A stretch of DNA of 39,033 bases from positions 1 through 39,033 of the forward strand of contig JAJYIM010000019.1 of assembly GCA_021790115.1 (NCBI GenBank). The letters run 5' to 3'. The first letter of the stretch is position 1. Each line of letters opens with the position of its first letter. The notes beneath the pieces are model-generated. The model ran no database searches and was not told the DNA's origin. It saw only the letters and a program-made list of their open reading frames with translations. Of this stretch, positions 32,601-39,033 are shown one piece after another. Origin of the DNA: Actinomycetes bacterium (GTDB lineage: Bacteria; Actinomycetota; Thermoleophilia; BMS3ABIN01). The translations under genes were made by a program, and so were the position numbers.

Positions 32601-32781
32601 AGAATCTATCTCAAAAGGCAGTTCGCAGCGAGGCCGAGCGAAAAGGCGATGGGCAAGGACGCAGGAGTAAAAAGCCCGCAGTCGTACCCGCTGCGGTACG
32701 TCGAGGGCTTTTTGCTCCGAGGACGCCGCCCATCGCCTTCGCAGCCGGCCGCAGCAGAATATGCCTTCTGAGATAGATTCT
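32601..32781. repeat. 181-bp MITE/REP-like inverted-repeat element
   Basis: 20-nt terminal inverted repeats AGAATCTATCTCAAAAGGCA / TGCCTTCTGAGATAGATTCT (19/20) around nested hairpin arms AAGGCGATGGGC/GCCCATCGCCTT and GAGTAAAAAGCCC/GGGCTTTTTGCTC; no ORF resembling a transposase. Confidence 0.88.
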
Positions 32782-38009: not shown

Positions 38010-38042
38010 ATGCAGGGGCGGCCCTCCGGGCCGCCCCTGCAT
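38010..38042 (-). terminator. Perfect 15-bp-arm hairpin 3' of the small peptide gene
   Basis: ATGCAGGGGCGGCCC-TCC-GGGCCGCCCCTGCAT; no clear U-tract, so function is uncertain. Confidence 0.5.
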
Positions 38043-38062: not shown

Positions 38063-38194
38063 TTACGGAGCCGGAGCCGGTGGAACCGTCACGCTGCACG
38101 ACCAGTTGGCGCACTGGAAGGTAAGGTCCTTCAGGTTCTCGTGCTTCACCAGTTCGGGCTTGGCGTAGGGCTCCCGCGTTTCCTTTTTCTTCAT
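38063..38194 (-). CDS. Putative RiPP precursor peptide (43 aa)
   Basis: MKKKETREPYAKPELVKHENLKDLTFQCANWSCSVTVPPAPAP; SD-like AGAGGAGA upstream of ATG 38194; YxxPxL...LT leader motif. ORF open to 38272. Confidence 0.7.
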   Translation of the reverse strand: MKKKETREPYAKPELVKHENLKDLTFQCANWSCSVTVPPAPAP

Positions 38195-38244
38195 TGCGGT
38201 TTCTCCTCTGTTCATTGCCATTTTGCCTGATCCCTGGTCAGCGC

Positions 38245-39033
38245 TTAGGGATACGTGTACGAGTTCCCGCACTCATCCTGGGCGCTGCCGGTCATGTCAG
38301 TATGCCAACTGCCTACACCCACGGGGACGTTGTACTTGATCGTCACCGTGGCCGAGCCGCCCGTGGCGATATTTACCGCCGTTGAAGGCACGCCCGAGTT
38401 AACGGTAACGCCGTTGGTGTTGGTGCTGCTGGTAATCCGGACACCGACGGCGTTCGGGCTGGTTGCCCCGTTGCTGATCGTCCAGTCAACAGACAGGATG
38501 CCAGCGTCGTAATCAGACAGGTTGTACCAGTAGGCGTGCGGCAGCGACATCGAGAGTATCGGCTTGGTGCACGTCCAGGTCGTGAAGCTGATCGGCGTGC
38601 TTGAGCTGAGCGCCTGGTTGTTATAGACGGTCAGGGTGCCGGTATAGGTGACTCCCGGATGCAGGCCGGTCAGGTTCTCGGTGTCGCTGGCGTGCAGGAT
38701 GGTGTTGTTTGTGTGCACGCTGGAGCTGTCAGAGCCGGTCAGGTCGATCTTGGTGGTGGCCGGCTGGTCTGTCGTCCTGCTGACGGTCGCGGTCGTATCG
38801 CCGGTGGCCGCGGCGCTATGGCTGCTGATCGTCGGCGCGGTGGTGTTCATTTCCGCGCCCAGGTTATAGGAGCCATAGATCTTGTTGCAGCCGTTGTTGG
38901 CACCGCTGCACTGGGCGGTGACCGCATCGAGCGGGTAGCTTACGCCCGTATCCGGCTGTTCCTGGCCCACCGACAGGGTGTTGTTGTAGTAGGGAACGCC
39001 GCTGTGGATATAACCGCCGGCGGTGGTTGTATA
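38245..39033 (-). CDS. Large surface/secreted protein with Fn3-like region (5' end outside the window)
   Basis: Frame stays open from the stop at 38245 through the window end; TAPTISSHSAAATGDTTATVSRTTDQPATTKIDLTG...LTGLHPGVTYTGTLTVYNNQALSSSTPISFTT is fibronectin-III/purple-phosphatase-N-like; Thr/Ser-rich. Confidence 0.75.
   Translation of the reverse strand, partial: YTTTAGGYIHSGVPYYNNTLSVGQEQPDTGVSYPLDAVTAQCSGANNGCNKIYGSYNLGAEMNTTAPTISSHSAAATGDTTATVSRTTDQPATTKIDLTGSDSSSVHTNNTILHASDTENLTGLHPGVTYTGTLTVYNNQALSSSTPISFTTWTCTKPILSMSLPHAYWYNLSDYDAGILSVDWTISNGATSPNAVGVRITSSTNTNGVTVNSGVPSTAVNIATGGSATVTIKYNVPVGVGSWHTDMTGSAQDECGNSYTYP

Follow-up and report, generated by a model that had tools for sequence, protein, structure and literature searches.

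The window, i.e., the whole stretch of 39,033 nucleotides which was analysed, is the complete contig C16 of a genome of 1.81 Mb in 63 contigs, and position 39033 is the contig end. Close to this end lies a small gene on the minus strand, from an ATG at 38194–38192 to a TAA at 38065–38063 (Table 1). A preliminary description of this DNA had reported an open reading frame for 43 amino acids with a good Shine-Dalgarno sequence; coordinates, ribosome binding site and translation were all verified, the latter being identical to the peptide given there. The hairpin directly behind the stop codon was calculated for a stretch of 76 nt (minimum free energy −43.3 kcal/mol, z −4.8); its role as a terminator can only be presumed, since a clear T run is lacking. 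Upstream, a larger open reading frame stops 50 nt before the ATG of the small gene. Its sister genes start with hydrophobic, signal-peptide-like N-termini.

Table 1. Features at the end of contig C16 (positions of the window).
Feature	Position	Strand	Basis or remark
Precursor gene (RiPP), 43 aa, coordinates with stop codon	38063..38194	-	translation, paralogues, dN/dS
Shine-Dalgarno sequence, AGAGGAGA	38202..38209	-	7 nt 5' of precursor ATG
Leader, residues 1-26 (boundary predicted), MKKKETREPYAKPELVKHENLKDLTF	38117..38194	-	alignment A4, NCBIfam lasso_leader_L3
Core, residues 27-43 (boundary predicted), QCANWSCSVTVPPAPAP	38066..38116	-	alignment A4
Hairpin, 15-bp stem, terminator-like	38010..38042	-	directly 3' of precursor stop
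Open ORF, 3' part of large-protein gene, 262 aa visible	38245..39033	-	cut by contig end
CTD (conserved C-terminal domain) of ~105 aa, an Ig-like beta sandwich which ends ...GNSYTYP	38248..38565	-	

An operon entering from beyond position 39033 had been assumed in the preliminary description, possibly with modifying enzymes. The open frame for a secreted protein is consistent with the operon, but a surface protein occupies the place just upstream, and enzymes, if at all, would act in trans. Because the contig ends there, the region beyond was read through the paralogous loci of the precursor. Synteny was judged from the retrieved locus stretches; the genomes are fragmented, and contigs often break at precursor loci. 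Within the window, no gene resembling a maturation enzyme was found, in agreement with the earlier observation. Searches of phage and plasmid collections gave no match, and a PADLOC scan of four proteins gave no match to a defence system. An imperfect palindromic repeat of ~180 bp (75% self-complementary, copies 92–98% alike) is dispersed in the genome, with copies at 32601–32781 and 1–104 of the window, and at L014:3292-3478, L024:8316-8498 and L013:11916-12095. The contig begins with one of these copies, and another touches a precursor gene; the repeat is a probable cause of assembly breaks and could be a MITE-like element.

The peptide had been regarded as an orphan, which was contradicted by a search with the 43 residues: 12 paralogues were present in the source genome (E down to 1e-27), and an alignment-based search yielded 5–12 copies in each of the 19 genomes examined of this uncultured actinobacterial order, which represent one family and seven genera. 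Public genome records contained 18 loci of the family, nearly all from named actinobacterial MAGs, e.g., Thermoleophilia B_ACT_02, Actinomycetes DBS2-1.bin96, FK3.bin172 and BMS3Abin01. Almost without variation, the members show the leader consensus Y-x-K-P-x-L-x-x-H-x-N-x-x-x-x-T and the core consensus C-x-x-W-[QS]-C-S-V-x-V-P. Invariant residues in alignment A4 were Y10, P13, N20 and T25 of the leader and C28, W31, C33, S34, V35, V37 and P38 of the core; homologous short frames with leader Tyr, Pro and Thr and both Cys conserved, which the preliminary description had proposed to look for, do therefore exist. Among 54 distinct genes, pS was 0.52 and pN 0.19, and most invariant positions use several synonymous codons; the family is under purifying selection (dN/dS about 0.25), and the frame at 38194–38063 is a genuine gene, far beyond chance. 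The core is nearly constant in most copies, both within a genome and over the seven genera. Few copies are degenerate or divergent: on C12 and C30, the end of the core is missing or the copy is cut by the contig end, and C22:86559 has a different tail. The suggestion of an undescribed family was supported, since a literature search, whose reach excluded most subscription journals, returned no description of it. Assignment to the Ogr/Delta zinc fingers was rejected, as the Pfam match (Ogr_Delta, E 0.0016) was below the cut-off and driven by the spacing of the Cys residues.

When about 400 genomes of Actinomycetota were scanned, the core was restricted to members of the order, and four genomes of family f11 matched the precursor in the leader only. 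Members of f11 contain short open reading frames (L113, L114, L115, L116, L122), in some genomes in several copies, with the leader Y[EQS]KPEL.E[HY]ENL..[VI]T[KR]G followed by short variable cores; these are a separate lasso- or LPP-like family of the same phylum.

The leader had been described as a lasso-type leader recognised by a RiPP recognition element (RRE), and this was corroborated: Tyr10, Pro13, Leu15 and Thr25 fit the spacing of lasso leaders, with Glu19 at the usual Gly position, and the motif YxxPx[LVI]...T occurs here together with a lasso-like PqqD, whose binding is predicted. Some sister copies scored close to the cut-off (19 bits) of NCBIfam NF033521 (lasso_leader_L3) or slightly exceeded it; this model spans the leader alone, and the copy in the window gave no score. 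Among solved structures, the leader matched the TfuA lasso leader alone, and weakly (E 0.38). The boundary between leader and core was set after Phe26 on the assumption of a lasso-type Thr at −2, and the cleavage site is predicted on that basis. As previously noted, the core contains two Cys residues (both invariant) and would be incapable of forming a lasso, because no aligned member has Asp or Glu at core positions 7–9.

The domain which terminates the upstream protein was modelled as an Ig-like sandwich (AlphaFold2, pLDDT 96). Foldseek retrieved generic beta sandwiches only, and neither Pfam nor a sequence search of the PDB gave a significant relative. The window copy was the best match of the CTD profile among the 19 genomes (E 3.7e-45), the sequence itself being part of the profile. 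Forty-four of 53 evaluable precursors start 9–96 nt behind a gene ending in this domain, for which the chance expectation is well under 1%; the pairing of 83% should be taken as an estimate, since score was one of the criteria by which loci had been selected. The CTD was situated not more than 10 residues from the C-terminus in 67 of 67 proteins, whose N-terminal parts vary (NosD-type beta helix, rhodanese, Ig-like) and have signal-peptide-like starts. It was detected in the five sampled genomes of the order and in none of 293 other sampled Actinomycetota; thus, CTD and core-bearing precursor have the same range, i.e., this order alone among the sampled orders of Actinomycetota. In the source genome, a CTD-bearing protein also adjoins the enzyme operon described below (L024:10465-11850).

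The CTD profile detected 11–38 domains per genome, which means that many have no precursor; of the CTD proteins inspected in the source genome, about half were not followed by one. Unpaired CTD proteins and lone precursors, e.g., behind a LOG-family-like gene, indicate that the CTD is not sufficient for pairing. The solitary precursor behind the LOG-family-like gene was present in four genomes (L013:14883-15704, L034, L036, L059), unpaired yet conserved in position. On the CTD tree, paired and unpaired proteins interleave with 9 changes, compared to a mean of 21 in shuffled data. Pairing is therefore clustered, and part of it reflects shared ancestry; it is inherited as a unit, yet has been repeatedly gained or lost.

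Antimicrobial and signalling roles are common among RiPPs, and the surface proteins could be incidental neighbours of such a peptide. This appears highly improbable, considering the near-constancy of the core, which is not diversified, the position of 44 of 53 precursors behind one kind of secreted protein, and the lack of a recognisable immunity or transporter gene adjoining the precursor.

Candidates for maturation enzymes were found elsewhere in the genomes. PqqD proteins, counted with PF05402 (RREs outside this model could exist), occurred in 19 of 19 genomes of the order, thus in all 13 good ones, and a B2 protein (Transglut_core3) in 16, including 12 of the 13 good ones; B2 was missing from the two least complete genomes (69% and 78%) and from G014, which still carries HprK-PqqD. 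The source genome encodes three PqqD proteins. The one on C58 (L024:9609-9908) has as neighbours an HprK-like kinase and a B2 protein of the Transglut_core3 type, that on C39 a radical SAM/SPASM protein, and that on C57 a P-loop protein and a glycosyltransferase. The C57 genes form a second RiPP-like locus (L025:4-1817, and about 2035), which contains an open reading frame for 35 aa, MEGKTKEAYESPVIEEIDLEESFSFGMPPVASPFI, with a YxxP motif of its own. The arrangement found throughout the order is that of HprK and PqqD, mostly joined by B2 and by a DUF2079 membrane protein, with glycosyltransferases nearby; in seven genomes the HprK-linked PqqD is the sole PqqD. In G011, B2-DUF2079 and HprK-PqqD are split by about 20 kb of other genes. 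In two loci (L087 of G011 and L090 of G014), HprK-PqqD is followed by an NTP_transf_5 nucleotidyltransferase, a type of gene known also from LPP loci (see below).

The B2 protein scored above the cut-off of NCBIfam lasso_biosyn_B2, and the nearest model for PqqD was lasso_PqqD_Bac, although below its cut-off. In the PDB, the RRE profile retrieved TbiB1, PbaB1, TfuB1 and LppB. Putative catalytic residues of B2 (Cys81 and His130) were invariant in the aligned members, as were the P-loop GxSGSGKST and an Asp-Asp of the HprK-like protein. The structure model of B2 was mediocre (pLDDT 73), and a fold search was faintly transglutaminase-like. The gene following B2 was first suspected to encode a cyclase; Pfam identified it as a DUF2079 membrane protein, for which a GT-C-type glycosyltransferase fold would be expected.

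A true lasso peptide, with its cyclase encoded elsewhere in the genome, would explain the leader as well as the lasso-type PqqD and B2, and two to five Asn_synthase matches are present in every genome. Its probability is nevertheless next to nil: the core has no acceptor for a macrolactam, no lasso cyclase was seen beside B1/B2 in the operon loci, and none of the Asn_synthase matches lies beside operon genes. Those tested in G003 exceeded the cut-off for asparagine synthase, with 220–342 bits against 525 bits required for a lasso cyclase, and two of them adjoin a Wzx-like flippase. A lasso peptide was rejected as the product.

The preliminary description had considered a thioether, a disulfide or another class of modification. 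A thioether or carbon crosslink, introduced by the PqqD-linked radical SAM/SPASM enzyme on the two Cys or on Trp, would be compatible with the PqqD and radical SAM pair of the source genome (L023:7893-9344) and with the invariant Cys, Trp, Cys and Ser of the core. This pair is located near a contig end (C39) and is patchy across the order. Matches at 1e-20 were obtained in 11 of 19 genomes; the other eight have none, yet all carry 5–10 precursors, and identities of at least 50% occurred in six genomes only, one of them with a fragment of 47 residues. A cognate radical SAM/SPASM enzyme wherever precursors occur, as expected for sactipeptides or ranthipeptides, was not found. The enzyme could modify just a subset; as the modification common to the family a thioether is very unlikely and was dropped, whereas a disulfide between the two Cys is possible.

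The HprK-like kinase, PqqD and B2 could also serve another substrate, the short frame encoding a small protein free of modification, with a Cys disulfide or a bound metal, which is co-translated with the surface protein. Operon and precursors are in fact unlinked, the weak zinc-finger-like match would fit, and the pairing with secreted proteins is the strongest signal. This explanation is unlikely: the RRE motif, of no use to an ordinary small protein, is kept with invariant Tyr, Pro, Asn and Thr, the peptide is devoid of a secretion signal, and in the retrieved HprK-PqqD-B2 loci no other YxxP-type short frame was seen. The last observation makes the dispersed precursors the obvious substrate. 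No precursor of the family is located inside the enzyme operon, so that the assignment of enzymes to substrate is based on the leader match, co-occurrence and elimination; on these grounds, the dispersed precursors are probably matured in trans by a single enzyme set whose genes lie in another part of the genome.

The closest described pathway is that of the linear polyphosphorylated peptides (LPP), which were described as restricted to Bacillota (PMC13381572). There, an RRE presents the leader, the HprK-like LppK polyphosphorylates Ser3 of the core, a peptidase cuts, and the products are linear, no cyclase being involved (PMC13381572). An HprK-like kinase and a discrete RRE in the absence of a cyclase, features of LPP membership, are found here as well. 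The leaders share YxxPx[VL][LV]xH...T, with Tyr, Pro and a hydrophobic pair, followed by His (Tyr+8) and Thr (Tyr+15); the start of the core, ECSNWQ ([EQ]C[SAP]NW in the family), resembles AQSNWK (AQSNW). Linkage to glycosyltransferase loci and an expected linear product are further similarities. The core has one invariant Ser as a candidate site of phosphorylation. Differences are the phylum, the B2 cysteine peptidase in place of the SpI-type LppS, the NTP transferase seen in only two operon loci, and the precursors, which are dispersed in 5–12 copies, paired with surface proteins and equipped with a short, conserved two-Cys core, whereas the C-termini of LPP are highly variable. Visual inspection of the operon loci revealed no equivalent of the MsbA-like exporter of LPP, and a dedicated exporter was not found. 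In view of this and of the replacement of SpI, we do not assign the peptide to LPP. Phosphorylated lasso peptides of the paeninodin type likewise have an HprK-like kinase, B1 (PqqD) and B2, and their RRE PbaB1 was among the PDB matches; here, however, the leader has Tyr instead of the Trp favoured by paeninodin RREs, and lasso cyclase and acceptor residue are lacking.

Thus, it seems reasonably probable that the gene encodes an LPP-like linear RiPP, related to lasso peptides, with many dispersed precursor genes, one enzyme set acting in trans and a surface protein as partner. Cleavage of the leader and phosphorylation are suggested by the widespread enzyme set, which consists of the HprK-like kinase, PqqD and, in most genomes, B2. 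The discrete PqqD-type RRE would bind the leader at YxKPxL...T, and the HprK-like kinase would phosphorylate the core, most likely at the invariant Ser of C-S-V; judging from the genes, the peptide is probably phosphorylated. The B2 cysteine peptidase could then cleave one residue past Thr and release [E/Q]CxxW[QS]CSVxVPxxP. Since there is neither a lasso cyclase nor an acceptor residue, the product should be linear, or closed solely by a disulfide between Cys2 and Cys7. It would exit the cell and cooperate with the secreted product of the adjacent upstream gene, probably by docking to the conserved Ig-like domain at the C-terminus of that protein. In this way, every surface protein would come with a separate copy of one short peptide. 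In a more specific version, which is rather unlikely, the CTD would serve for sorting or attachment, and the mature peptide would be its dedicated stoichiometric ligand or covalent adduct. The RiPP would then be a structural or anchoring element of the cell surface instead of a secreted metabolite, and the link would be built by the kinase together with the GT-C-like DUF2079 protein.

RiPP precursors are usually encoded as one to few genes beside their enzymes, and their cores are variable. In contrast, a near-constant core is repeated here genome-wide, each copy usually with a different surface protein of the same terminal domain, and one enzyme set probably serves all copies. The location of such precursors behind secreted proteins ending in a conserved Ig-like domain (44 of 53) is new here. 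RiPP searches which are confined to the neighbourhoods of enzymes would overlook families of this kind. If the proposed pathway is correct, a cell-surface role, with the CTD as a concrete partner, would be indicated for a lasso-derived RiPP without cyclase. A lead on the function of two other groups found in polysaccharide loci, the LPP and the paeninodin peptides, could also be gained.
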